Part shown: positions 25,692-29,832 of the stretch, piece after piece
Layout of the letters: the number at the start of each line of letters is the position of its first letter
Numbering within the stretch: the stretch's first letter is position 1
Source: an uncultured Rhodobiaceae bacterium
GTDB lineage: Bacteria; Pseudomonadota; Alphaproteobacteria; RS24
Direction: 5' to 3'
DNA: 64,000 nt
NCBI GenBank assembly: GCA_937907245.1
Contig: CALCUM010000003.1
Location: 869,501 to 933,500 of the forward strand
Notes under the pieces: model-generated
What the model saw: the letters and a program-made list of their open reading frames with translations, nothing else
Databases searched by the model: none
Told to the model about the DNA's origin: nothing
Made by a program: the position numbers and the translations under genes

Positions 25692-25705
25692 CTCGGGGCT
25701 TTTCC

Positions 25706-25741
25706 GCCGCAGAAATGGCCGCAGAAATGGCCGTAGAAATG
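25706..25741. repeat. Three tandem 12-bp units after sdhB
   Basis: gccgcagaaatg is repeated at 25706-25717 and 25718-25729, and a one-base variant (gccgtagaaatg) occupies 25730-25741. The block lies between the sdhB stop and its terminator hairpin. Confidence 0.85.
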
Positions 25742-25743
25742 AA

Positions 25744-25775
25744 AGAGGCCACTGCATGCAGTGGCCTCTCTTTTT
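25744..25775 (+). terminator. Intrinsic terminator of sdhCDAB
   Basis: A perfect 13-bp inverted repeat at 25744-25769 (arm AGAGGCCACTGCA) is followed by cTTTTT. The symmetric structure could also end transcription from the opposite strand, where the small lipoprotein gene terminates 15 nt away. Confidence 0.85.
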
Positions 25776-25790
25776 GGGTGGGGCTTCGAC

Positions 25791-25988
25791 TTACTCTTGG
25801 TCGAGTTTTTCAAAAGCCGCATCGGATTGTCGCTTGGCAGCGGCGGCCCCTGTTTGTTTTTCCATCTCTTGTTTGGCGGCCGCTAAATCCGCCAGACTGT
25901 ATTTTGAGCTACATGCCGTTAAGCCAAGTCCCATAGCCGCGGTTACAACCAGCGATATAACAACCGGTGTTTTGGTCCAGCCACGCAT
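25791..25988 (-). CDS. Small putative lipoprotein (65 aa)
   Basis: No family recognised. The N-terminus has a basic segment, a hydrophobic stretch and a lipobox, LTAC, with C26 as the lipidated residue. The remaining 39 residues are polar and helix-prone (LADLAAAKQEMEKQTGAAAA). The ATG at 25988 lies one base after the stop of the preceding LPP20-like gene; an earlier in-frame start at 26006 would overlap that gene. It is last of four consecutive lipoprotein genes and is presumably part of the same complex. Confidence 0.7.
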   Translation of the reverse strand: MRGWTKTPVVISLVVTAAMGLGLTACSSKYSLADLAAAKQEMEKQTGAAAAKRQSDAAFEKLDQE

Positions 25989-25989
25989 A

Positions 25990-26598
25990 TTACTGCTCGT
26001 CCGCAAGGTCGGCTTTCAACTGGTCAAAACTTTGCGACGCTTTGAAGCGTTGAAATTCAGCTGCTTCTCCTGCAAAAGCCGCTTCTGCAGCCTCGGCCAA
26101 CACGCCATCCAGAATGTCAGGGGTTAGCCCCACGATGACATAAGCCATGCCCGTTTTCGGGTTCCGGGTTTTGGTTAAAACACGACTGCCAACAAGGTCC
26201 GCTTGCGACAAAACTTTCTGGGTAATTTCAGCCGTAGAAATACTAGTTTCATTTCCAGCGGTCTGACTGCCGGTGCTCGCGCGATAATCTTTTATAGAGC
26301 TGGTGGCTTTCGACGAGATAGTCCGCGCTAGCTTTTGGCGGGCTCGAGACGTGGCCATCTCCACCATGAAATCATATCCCATGTTGGAATTTTGAAAAGA
26401 CCCAACGGCCGCCAGACTAACGCCTGGGAACGCTTCATTACAAACCCACATAGGCGCAGGTGTGTCATAGGGGCCTTGGCCATCGTTAAAGGCGCACATA
26501 GGCACTGGCGCTTGGGCCACAACAGGTGGCGCTGGTTTGGCACAACCAATAAGTGCCGTCGCAGCGGCGAGAAGGATAAGGTTATTTGATATTTTCAT
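25990..26598 (-). CDS. LPP20-family lipoprotein
   Basis: 202 aa with a lipobox LIGC and lipidated C19. After a Pro-rich spacer, PMWVCNEAFPGVSLAAVGS and SRARQKLARTISSKATSSIKDY match the LPP20 domain layout (Trp-containing start, repeated-alanine helix, then a core ending in MAYVIVGL). LPP20 proteins include the Helicobacter lipoprotein and the flagellar ring protein FlgP, but function varies. It is the third gene of the cluster, 42 nt after its longer paralogue. Confidence 0.72.
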   Translation of the reverse strand: MKISNNLILLAAATALIGCAKPAPPVVAQAPVPMCAFNDGQGPYDTPAPMWVCNEAFPGVSLAAVGSFQNSNMGYDFMVEMATSRARQKLARTISSKATSSIKDYRASTGSQTAGNETSISTAEITQKVLSQADLVGSRVLTKTRNPKTGMAYVIVGLTPDILDGVLAEAAEAAFAGEAAEFQRFKASQSFDQLKADLADEQ

Positions 26599-26640
26599 TT
26601 TCAGTTTCCTATAAGTTAGTGGTGAATCTGTCCGGTTTAC

Positions 26641-27531
26641 TTATTTCTCAAGGCGTTCTCGTAAAATTGGGGTGAGGCTGCGCATAGCCGAGCGAATAGC
26701 CTTGGCAGCGAGGGCGGCTTGGCTGGCTTGGCTGAAGCTGACGCCTTTGGCTGGCGTAACCTGTTGCCAAATAGGGGTTTGATTGGGGGCGATAATTTGC
26801 GTGCGTAATTCGCCGCGCATGGCGGTGCCCATATCGAGTTGGGTCACTTGGAAAGTGAATTTAATCTGATGCGCGGAAGGGGCGGGTGAGGGCACAATCT
26901 TGCGGATACCGACTTCAGACAATACTTGGCCGGCTGCGCTATCTAATAAGGCGCGATAGGCGGGATCCGTATCTTGCGTGTTCACATAATAGGTTTGATT
27001 GCCCAAACGCGCCGCTTCTGCTTTGGCAATTTTTTGTTTACTGGCTTCAATTTGACGAGTAGCGATTTGCACGCGGGCATAAATGCGGCACGAAGTGCTA
27101 TCGACCCAACGATCGGTAATGCGGCTGTTTTCTAAAACGCCTTGCGATACCAAAGACGATTGGATGGAGGCCTTAGAGGCTCCAACGCCGCCACCATAAG
27201 AGGTACGCGTATCTGTTATACGGCTGCTTACCTGTGTGTTCAGGATACGCGCCAATTTGCTCCGAGCGGAGAGGTCTGCCTTATTGACATCTATGTTTTG
27301 AAGTCCTGTGCATTGGCTCGTCCCGCTGGTTTGATAGGTCTGGCTCGTCACCGTGTCGCCGGCATTAACCCACGCGGGGCGGGGGCTAGGCTCAAAGTAG
27401 GTATCACAAACACAGCGAGCGGGTACCGGCTTCGCGCCAGATGATAAAGCTCCAGGCAAGGGAAGCGCCGCGCAGCTGGCCGTGACCGCTAGAGCGACGA
27501 CAGAAAAAATAACTCGGGGTAAGCTGTGCAT
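26641..27531 (-). CDS. LPP20-like lipoprotein with an extra C-terminal domain
   Basis: 296 aa. Lipobox TASC with C20. The middle part (PRPAWVNAGD, then LSARSKLARILNTQVSSRITD and RIYARVQI) resembles the LPP20 domain of the next gene. A second domain (residues about 185-296) has IKFTFQVTQLDMGTAMRGEL and PIWQQV, reminiscent of LpoB/CsgG-type beta-alpha folds, but this is weak. Its ATG abuts the stop of the CsgG-like gene (TAGATG), so the two are probably cotranslated. No enzymatic motif is seen. Confidence 0.65.
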   Translation of the reverse strand: MHSLPRVIFSVVALAVTASCAALPLPGALSSGAKPVPARCVCDTYFEPSPRPAWVNAGDTVTSQTYQTSGTSQCTGLQNIDVNKADLSARSKLARILNTQVSSRITDTRTSYGGGVGASKASIQSSLVSQGVLENSRITDRWVDSTSCRIYARVQIATRQIEASKQKIAKAEAARLGNQTYYVNTQDTDPAYRALLDSAAGQVLSEVGIRKIVPSPAPSAHQIKFTFQVTQLDMGTAMRGELRTQIIAPNQTPIWQQVTPAKGVSFSQASQAALAAKAIRSAMRSLTPILRERLEK

Positions 27532-28569
27532 CTAACGCAACTGATTTTGTAAAGTCGAGCGGCCAGCAATTGTGTCTTGGACGCGTTTCAACGCGGTACC
27601 GATAATTTTATTCGGCGATGCGGTGAGGCGGTCAGCCCTTTGATAGAAGGCCAGGGCGCGATCAAAATCCCCCTCGGTTTCGGCACATACGCCGACATTA
27701 TGATAAATCGCGGGAGACTGATCATACATGCCCGCTGCCTTGCGGAAGAACTCGCAACTGCGCGGGATGCGTTCGCTTTTGACGAATTCTAGGCCAGATG
27801 CAAAGGCCTCTTTTACCTCGGCCTGGTCGCCAAACCCGCTCGCGTCGCGCGTCATAAACTTAATGTCGAAAGTGACGGGGTATGGGGCAATGTCTCGGCG
27901 TACTTGCGATAGAACGCTAGCAATGACTTTGTTTTGCATGTCACTCTTGGCTTGAAGTCCGGCTTTAAAGATTTGGTTATCGCACCATGAATGTTGGGTT
28001 GTCGCGCCATAAGATTGCGTGAAAGAGACGACGCCTCTTTCGACATCGGTGGCTCGTAAGTTCAGCTGTGCCGAGGCGCTTTGGGCGTGGCAATTGACCA
28101 ATTTAGTTGCGTATTTCTCACATGCGAAATTTTCCCCCCAGACCGAGCAGAATTGAACCGATTTTTGTGTTCTCGTGTGGTCGTAATTAGGCTCAAAAGA
28201 TCCTCCCAATAGAGTATCCGCTGTTGTGAGATTGCCCAACTCTGCGGCCGTCTCGGCCGAAAACATGGCGCTGTCGCCAAGGCGTTGTTCATTAAGCAGG
28301 GTCTTTCGGTCTAGGTCGACCAGAGTAAAATAAGGTTTATCATTAACTTGAATGGCCGCGACGAAGCTGCGAAGGCGATCGCCCATCGTGCCATTATAGT
28401 CGCCTTTCAAAGGGGCGATGCCAACGCGCTGCGCGTTGACCATACCACTTTGATTAGCCGGCATTAAAATAGTCGTTTTTACCGAGGGACTTGCACACGC
28501 AGCCAATAAGCTGCCACATAGGCCAAGGACGATAGAAAATCTTGGTAAGTTAAGACCTAAAGGTTTCAT
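27532..28569 (-). CDS. CsgG-like lipoprotein with C-terminal TPR repeat
   Basis: 345 aa from the ATG at 28569. Lipobox LAAC with C25. Residues about 48-125 (RVGIAPLKGD, LVDLDRKTLLNEQRLGD, ELGNLTTADTLLGGSF) follow the CsgG/FlgO-type pattern of outer-membrane assembly lipoproteins. Residues about 295-330 (PAIYHNVGVCAETEGDFDRALAFYQRAD) form a TPR unit. It has many cysteines for a periplasmic protein (FCSVWGENFACEKY, C in VNCHAQ, SWCDNQ), possibly disulfide-bonded. It is first of the operon; the 129-nt gap to zapE holds no convincing promoter, only an AACGTT dyad near 28606. Confidence 0.65.
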   Translation of the reverse strand: MKPLGLNLPRFSIVLGLCGSLLAACASPSVKTTILMPANQSGMVNAQRVGIAPLKGDYNGTMGDRLRSFVAAIQVNDKPYFTLVDLDRKTLLNEQRLGDSAMFSAETAAELGNLTTADTLLGGSFEPNYDHTRTQKSVQFCSVWGENFACEKYATKLVNCHAQSASAQLNLRATDVERGVVSFTQSYGATTQHSWCDNQIFKAGLQAKSDMQNKVIASVLSQVRRDIAPYPVTFDIKFMTRDASGFGDQAEVKEAFASGLEFVKSERIPRSCEFFRKAAGMYDQSPAIYHNVGVCAETEGDFDRALAFYQRADRLTASPNKIIGTALKRVQDTIAGRSTLQNQLR

Positions 28570-28698
28570 AATTTGAACTTCTACTTTAAAAAGTTTTTTA
28601 CAAGATAACGTTACCAGCCTTATTTCTATTTGGAAATAGCGGGCAAGAATTTTCTCTGCGCTTGCCAAATAAGCCTAGGGGCTTTAACCCTCGCTTTT

Positions 28699-29832
28699 AT
28701 GACTAGCGATAGGCAGATAGAAGGTCCGGTAAGCCAGCGTTACCAAAGCTTGGTTCAACAGGGCCATGTGAACCATGATGAGGCTCAGGTTCTTGCCGCG
28801 CGTGCGCTCGACCGGGTTTATGCGGAGCTTGAAAATCAGGCCAGCCAAGGCTGGTTGGCTCGGCTCGGAATTAAAAAGGCCAATGTCCCGCGCGGGCTTT
28901 ATATATTTGGCGAAGTTGGGCGCGGCAAATCTATGTTGATGGATATGTTCGTCGACATGGCACCTGTCGCCAAAAAGCGGCGGGTTCACTTCCATGCTTT
29001 TATGCAAGAGACCCACGCGCGCATTCATGCCTATCGCCAAGCTCATCCCAAGGCTGGCGACCCAATGCCTGCCGTCGCCAAAAGGCTGGCGCGCGAAGTC
29101 TCGCTGCTTTGCTTCGACGAATTTCAAGTTAAAGACATCGCCGATGCCTCTATTCTAGGGCGTCTATTCTCGCTGTTGCTCGACGCGGGCATAGTTGTGA
29201 TTTCCACCTCTAACCGCCATCCAGACGATCTATATAAAGGCGGTCTCCACCGGCAGCGGTTTATGCCGTTTATCGACTTGATGAAGCAGCGTCTCGATAT
29301 TCACGAGCTGAGTGCCGAAACCGATTATCGGTTGGCCAGACTGCAAGCGGCGCCCGTTTGGTTTACGCCGTGCGGCCCGCGCGCTCGTAAAGCGCTGGAC
29401 GAGAGATTTGCAAGCCTTACCGAAGGTGTGGTGGCGGCCCCTATGCGGCTTGATTTAAAAGGGCGCGAGCTTCCCATAGGCCAAGCGGCGGGCGGTGTGG
29501 CGCGCCTAAGTTTTGCTGAATTATGCGTGGAATCTCGCGGCGCGCCCGATTATTTGGCGCTAGCCAGCCATTTTCATACTGTGGTCATTGATGCTATCCC
29601 CCAGTTGGAGCCGCAAAAGAAAAATGAAGCGGTGCGCTTTGTAACGCTCATTGATGCCCTCTATGAAGCCAAAGTAAAACTTCTGGCCTCCGCCGATGGC
29701 GAGCCGCAAACGCTTTATCCGAGCGGCGATGAGGCCTTTGAGTTTGAGCGCACAGTCTCGCGATTGATGGAGATGCAGAGCCGCGATTATCTCGCCTTGC
29801 CGCATTTGCCGCCTAAACCCCTCGGCAGCTAA
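28699..29832 (+). CDS. zapE: Cell division protein ZapE (AFG1-like ATPase)
   Basis: P-loop ATPase that in E. coli modulates the FtsZ ring and in mitochondria (AFG1) handles respiratory-chain proteins; 377 aa from the ATG at 28699. Walker A GEVGRGKS is at 71-78 and Walker B LLCFDEF ends with D140/E141. FMQETHARIH and STSNRHPDDLY are family signatures. The ribosome-binding site is poor. Position upstream of mdh is common in alphaproteobacteria. Confidence 0.93.
   Translation: MTSDRQIEGPVSQRYQSLVQQGHVNHDEAQVLAARALDRVYAELENQASQGWLARLGIKKANVPRGLYIFGEVGRGKSMLMDMFVDMAPVAKKRRVHFHAFMQETHARIHAYRQAHPKAGDPMPAVAKRLAREVSLLCFDEFQVKDIADASILGRLFSLLLDAGIVVISTSNRHPDDLYKGGLHRQRFMPFIDLMKQRLDIHELSAETDYRLARLQAAPVWFTPCGPRARKALDERFASLTEGVVAAPMRLDLKGRELPIGQAAGGVARLSFAELCVESRGAPDYLALASHFHTVVIDAIPQLEPQKKNEAVRFVTLIDALYEAKVKLLASADGEPQTLYPSGDEAFEFERTVSRLMEMQSRDYLALPHLPPKPLGS

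Follow-up and report, generated by a model that had tools for sequence, protein, structure and literature searches.

LPP20 proteins are widespread and, to our knowledge, have no clear function apart from that of FlgP. A limited literature search for the LPP20 family, for COG3014 and for LPP20 together with CsgG found no papers. In Vibrio, FlgP forms the H-ring together with FlgO and FlgT (PMC7990780). Other envelope lipoproteins act on the cell wall: LpoP of P. aeruginosa, an outer-membrane TPR lipoprotein, activates PBP1B (PMC7267771), and HP0018, a TPR lipoprotein of H. pylori, co-immunoprecipitated with MltD and AmiA, while its homologues can share an operon with a homologue of LpoB (PMC11394524). 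The co-purification of HP0018 therefore provides a precedent for a link between a TPR lipoprotein and peptidoglycan enzymes. A lipoprotein operon of Campylobacter has been linked to adherence, not to the cell wall (PMC3100323). Here we describe a cluster of four lipoprotein genes that is not flagellar and that is close in its parts to known envelope lipoprotein modules.

The cluster lies in a 64,000-nucleotide stretch of DNA (the window), where four consecutive, co-directional lipoprotein ORFs were confirmed on the minus strand between positions 25791 and 28569, as the original prediction had described them. Gene 1 (P0001, 27532–28569, 345 aa) encodes a lipoprotein with a CsgG-like domain and a C-terminal TPR; gene 2 (P0002, 26641–27531, 296 aa) has an LPP20-like N-terminal half and a PelC/CsgG/FlgT-type C-terminal domain (residues about 172–296); gene 3 (P0003, 25990–26598, 202 aa) encodes a stand-alone LPP20-family lipoprotein; and gene 4 (P0004, 25791–25988, 65 aa) a tiny lipoprotein, the mature part of which is charged and alanine-rich. 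The gaps between them are 0, 42 and 1 nt, so the tight spacing claimed earlier holds for two of the three junctions but not for all. A hairpin terminator (25744–25769), with an 11-pair stem on the plus strand followed by CTTTTT, separates sdhB from the cluster's 3′ end; its palindromic stem may serve both strands. No convincing sigma-70 promoter for the cluster was found above the level of shuffled sequence.

Each protein carries the signal segment and the cysteine expected from the original prediction (C25, C20, C19 and C26 in P0001–P0004, respectively), and lipidation of all four is predicted from their lipoboxes. That of P0002 is weak (TASC, with T at −3); its C20 is nonetheless invariant in four orthologues. 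A crude lipobox regular expression, which itself missed P0002, was run over the 57 window ORFs of at least 100 aa and gave one further match, probably a false positive; with only this other match, the grouping of four lipoproteins is not a product of chance. In all four genes pN is far below pS between orthologues, with dN/dS of about 0.05–0.35 where dS is unsaturated, and the four genes are thus under purifying selection. P0004, for which no family match exceeded the cut-off, has a dN/dS of 0.24–0.25 between orthologues and is a genuine lipoprotein of 65 aa, though one that evolves fast. The operon is confirmed as real and conserved.

P0003 alone reached no Pfam family. More is learned from distant relatives, found in three other genomes of alphaproteobacteria: two of them match LPP20 at 1e-9 to 1e-11 (L052, L053), and the third (L054) aligns over most of its length. 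A profile of seven members of the P0003 family (A4) matched H. pylori LPP20 (5ok8) over most of its length with an E-value of 1.3e-12. Because the family profile matches 5ok8 and the relatives exceed the Pfam cut-off, we take P0003 to be a full-length LPP20 protein, which bears out the earlier assignment. It differs from the H. pylori protein in the family's extra invariant cysteines, C35 and C53, which are conserved in seven relatives, and in an AP-x-WVC motif. As a minor observation, the LPP20 protein of one of the distant relatives (L054:9335-9832, genome G229) ends about 30 residues early, and the profile match continues across the TAA.

The evidence that P0002 is LPP20-like is less firm than for gene 3. 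It scored 16.1 bits against Pfam LPP20 (E 0.015), below the cut-off of 25.9; hhalign to the P0003 LPP20 family gave a probability of 96% and an E-value of 2e-9, and P0002 and P0003 retrieve each other in whole-genome searches (E about 1e-5). On these comparisons the two proteins are distant paralogues, and the earlier description of gene 2 as LPP20-like is supported, if less firmly than that of gene 3. The N-terminal half of its structural model is unreliable, while the C-terminal domain is modelled with a pLDDT of about 80–93. Residues 172–295 match PelC (Z 11.0, rmsd 3.4, 117 aligned), a result with which Foldseek agrees (E 2.5e-6), and the domain also matches CsgG (Z 10.1), LptE and FlgT (Z 9.0). 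Taken together, the hhalign and structural matches indicate that in P0002 an LPP20-like part is combined with a domain of PelC/CsgG/FlgT type; the predicted resemblance to FlgT is one of the fold of a single domain.

P0001 passes the Pfam CsgG cut-off (27.5 bits against 20.8), in a partial match covering positions 64–156 of the 210 in the profile, and its C-terminal TPR gave a sub-threshold profile match; the description of gene 1 as CsgG-like with TPR therefore stands. Full-length homologues were found at seven loci (L007, L008, L009, L055, L056, L057 and L010), and profile searches located homologues of the same layout in other alphaproteobacterial families (f13, f146). Class-wide matches to the A1 and A8 profiles were mostly to TPR only and were set aside; full-length matches to these profiles occurred in only five genomes of the sample searched. 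Across eight family members 18 residues are invariant, among them six cysteines (C141, C150, C160, C196, C272 and C295), of which C272 and C295 lie in the TPR region. The alphaproteobacterial family to which P0001 belongs apparently has no name; of all the components of the cluster, this family, with the pattern of its cysteines, is the most novel. Four members of the family gave weak matches to LpoB (best 7.6e-4) and three matched CsgG. P0001 scored 13.4 bits against the LpoB profile (E 0.07; cut-off 22.3), and since it falls below this cut-off and the hhalign comparison was weak, we rejected the possibility that it is an LpoB orthologue. In addition to the window's own gene, secreted or lipoprotein CsgG-like/TPR proteins of this family are encoded at L055:7051-8178, L056:7581-8624, L057:6199-7092 and L010:8890-9849.

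The AlphaFold model of P0001 is poor (mean pLDDT 53) and with Foldseek returned essentially TPR matches, so that the CsgG-like assignment is one made from sequence. Alignment with K-12 CsgG brings the strands that flank the first transmembrane hairpin (TM1) into register, and at the position of TM1 P0001 has a charged, cysteine-rich segment with three invariant cysteines. We read this segment as more like a disulfide-held loop, a hairpin also being possible. These features bear on the main rival to the reading we favour below, namely that the cluster encodes a small outer-membrane export machine, in which P0001 would form a CsgG-like pore, P0002 and P0003 a collar like those of PelC and FlgT, and the TPR would bind a secreted protein or polysaccharide. 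It draws on likenesses to the ring-forming lipoproteins CsgG and PelC: P0001 scores above the threshold for CsgG and can be aligned to the K-12 protein on both sides of TM1, its poorly scored model places long strands (residues 128–144, 150–173 and 183–196) where CsgG has its hairpins, and the PelC ring is the best fold match of P0002. However, the TM1 position is occupied by a segment that is rich in charged residues and contains three invariant cysteines, the CsgG match extends over less than half of the profile, and no substrate, curli or Pel gene was seen by eye next to the cluster. Moreover, three relatives of P0001 (L055, L057 and L010) have, as judged by eye, ordinary signal peptides rather than a lipobox. 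A secretion role for the cluster is thus a possible candidate, and in our estimate an unlikely one.

The same list of parts, a CsgG-type lipoprotein, a FlgP-like LPP20 protein and an LPP20-like protein with a domain that fits FlgT, recalls the Vibrio H-ring, and could mean that the cluster is a relative of the flagellar H-ring or basal disk (FlgO/FlgP/FlgT) that serves a flagellum now or did so formerly. We consider this very improbable: FlgH was found in none of the 12 genomes of the genus, including the complete genome analysed here, while control genomes were positive. The cluster also has no flagellar neighbour, and gene 1 differs from the H-ring proteins in its TPR and cysteine pattern. 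Because of the lack of FlgH across the genus, we regard the flagellar parallel as one of parts, not of function. The original prediction of a non-flagellar outer-membrane ring or export assembly accordingly holds for its non-flagellar character, and a ring is plausible from the PelC/CsgG/FlgT fold, but export has found no direct support.

The gene neighbourhoods of relatives were read as well. L053 and L054, which come from two genera of a different alphaproteobacterial family, carry a relative of P0003 in the order LPP20, TPR lipoprotein, LpoB and LPP20/PEGA protein. The LpoB of L053 matches TIGR02722 with 134.5 bits (cut-off 110.55), and its L054 counterpart is 70% identical. A phylum-wide search added two loci (L145, L147) at which LPP20, an LpoB-like protein, a TPR lipoprotein and a larger LPP20 protein occur together, the LpoB-like and TPR lipoproteins being assigned by BLAST to those of L053 and L054. 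These operons and the window's cluster have four parts in common: a lipoprotein of CsgG/LpoB type, a TPR, an LPP20 protein akin to P0003 and, besides it, a larger protein of LPP20 type. The cluster differs from them in that the CsgG-like domain and the TPR are in one chain, in that the CsgG-like part scores under the LpoB cut-off, in the added tiny lipoprotein, and in its host, where the PBPs that were found lack UB2H. We do not take P0002 for an orthologue of the LPP20/PEGA protein of L053 and L054, to which it has no profile similarity, nor of larger LPP20 proteins elsewhere, for which only a 45% probability over the N-terminal part was obtained. In our reading, the cluster is a variant of the LpoB/LPP20/TPR kind with its parts rearranged. 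By their published descriptions, Campylobacter Cj0089–Cj0091 and Helicobacter HP0018/HP1457 are comparable, being small co-transcribed lipoprotein sets that include a TPR and an LpoB-like protein.

A second arrangement was found in four genomes of two families elsewhere in the phylum (L139, L141, L142 and L143), in which a larger LPP20 protein (LPP20b), a lipoprotein of about 330–350 aa and a relative of gene 3 (LPP20a) are followed by an SLT lytic transglycosylase. The SLT matches downstream of LPP20a have E-values of 7e-27 to 3e-22, and one of these proteins also has an Mltc_N match. These operons lie at L139:3428-7665, L141:4464-8543, L142:3155-7246 and L143:3363-7446, and their middle lipoprotein is without a family assignment; no paper on this gene order was found with the terms tried. 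We considered whether P0001 is homologous to this middle lipoprotein in L139 and L142, and detected no similarity. Two relatives of gene 1 (L055, L057) lie upstream of acpP–fabF–mltG; two others (L010, L056) do not, and the proximity to mltG may be due to chance. Of the relatives of gene 3 that were read, about half lack an informative neighbour. Beside the window's own cluster there is no peptidoglycan gene; it is the gene contexts of the relatives, not that of the operon itself, that tie its parts to the cell wall.

The reading we favour, tentatively and as somewhat short of probable, is that the cluster encodes a non-flagellar periplasmic lipoprotein complex, anchored in the outer membrane, that docks peptidoglycan enzymes and links the outer membrane with the synthesis or remodelling of the cell wall; its outer-membrane location, its oligomerization and its peptidoglycan-enzyme partner are all things we infer. 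The three core proteins and the small accessory lipoprotein would come together at the inner surface of the outer membrane, where they would probably form a ring or an oligomeric scaffold. Periplasmic partners, for which peptidoglycan synthases and lytic transglycosylases are the likeliest candidates, would bind to the TPR of gene 1 and to the LPP20 modules, and in its coupling of membrane and wall the complex would work like the LpoB/TPR-lipoprotein/LPP20 operons. That it recruits or tunes peptidoglycan enzymes is suggested by the LpoB/TPR, SLT and acpP–fabF–mltG contexts of the relatives, and the C-terminal PelC/CsgG/FlgT fold of P0002 also speaks for such a scaffold. Against it we count the LpoB score of P0001, which is below the cut-off, the weak LpoB profile comparison, and a number of class A PBPs that is independent of the cluster: two are found in 11 of the 12 genomes of the genus, whether the cluster is present or not, and a single one is found in the remaining genome (G006, 77% complete). 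In the genome analysed here (G000) both class A PBPs that were found lack a UB2H domain, and classical docking as by LpoB in E. coli or LpoP in P. aeruginosa is for this reason unlikely here.

A more specific proposal is that the cluster encodes a ring or scaffold at the outer membrane that is limited to this genus and has not been described before. It would consist of a CsgG-like/TPR lipoprotein from a new cysteine-rich family and an LPP20 pair, one member of which has a PelC-like domain, and would couple the outer membrane to peptidoglycan enzymes by something other than UB2H-type docking; this we regard as possible, with more doubt than the general form. The original prediction had also seen here a candidate for an undescribed system. 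This is right only in part, since the LpoB/TPR/SLT contexts of the relatives tie the parts to a known kind, that of cell-wall regulation. The recurrence of LPP20 with LpoB and TPR, or with SLT, points to a general and directly testable role in coupling the outer membrane to the cell wall. In the window, the LPP20/LpoB/TPR kit takes a compact form in a marine alphaproteobacterium that lacks FlgH, which sets the cluster apart from the more familiar flagellar role.

Within the genus, the cluster is present in three other genomes (G001, G005 and G007), always between sdhB and zapE, the latter being a label given by eye to the gene next to the cluster; a contig scan with profile A3 recovered the same three. 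G001 and G005 have the complete four-gene order, with the position of P0004 conserved; in G007 the three large genes are accompanied by what is left of the fourth, without the lipobox cysteine. That small gene (L009:1400-1690) is apparently degenerate and recognizable in its C-terminal part only. The four-gene block was found in none of the 385 sampled genomes of the class outside the genus; a search for its order across alphaproteobacteria, as first proposed, thus traced it to a single genus, to which, as far as sampled, the four-gene form is limited.

The site was also read in seven more genomes of the genus. In G004 it is empty, with 124 bp separating sdhB and zapE and a similar terminator stem kept after sdhB; in G003 and G008 it comprises about 33 bp; G002, G010 and G011 have an acyl-CoA dehydrogenase gene there, and G009 has one together with an aquaporin-like gene (all named by eye). 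A tree built from five flanking proteins, with midpoint rooting only, makes G004 the sister of G001 (support 98), which places an empty site inside a cluster-bearing clade, and groups G007 with the empty-site genomes G003 and G008 (98). Because one loss falls within a cluster-bearing clade, the simplest reading of these sequences looks to be a cluster ancestral to the genus and lost several times; independent insertions at the same site are less likely.

Such patchy presence and repeated loss, along with a divergence that is fast relative to that of SdhB, would also suit a set of surface or periplasmic lipoproteins for adhesion, vesiculation or stress, which would form no defined machine and be held in an operon for co-regulation only; the Campylobacter lipoprotein operon tied to adherence (PMC3100323) is a case in point. 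We think this improbable, to about the same degree as export, since gene order is strict, purifying selection persists down to about 40% identity, and the combination of LPP20 with LpoB and TPR, or with SLT, recurs in other genomes. The sdhB–zapE site itself (window 25692–28704; L110–L116) is variable in the genus, holding the cluster, an acyl-CoA dehydrogenase gene with or without the aquaporin-like gene, or nearly nothing.
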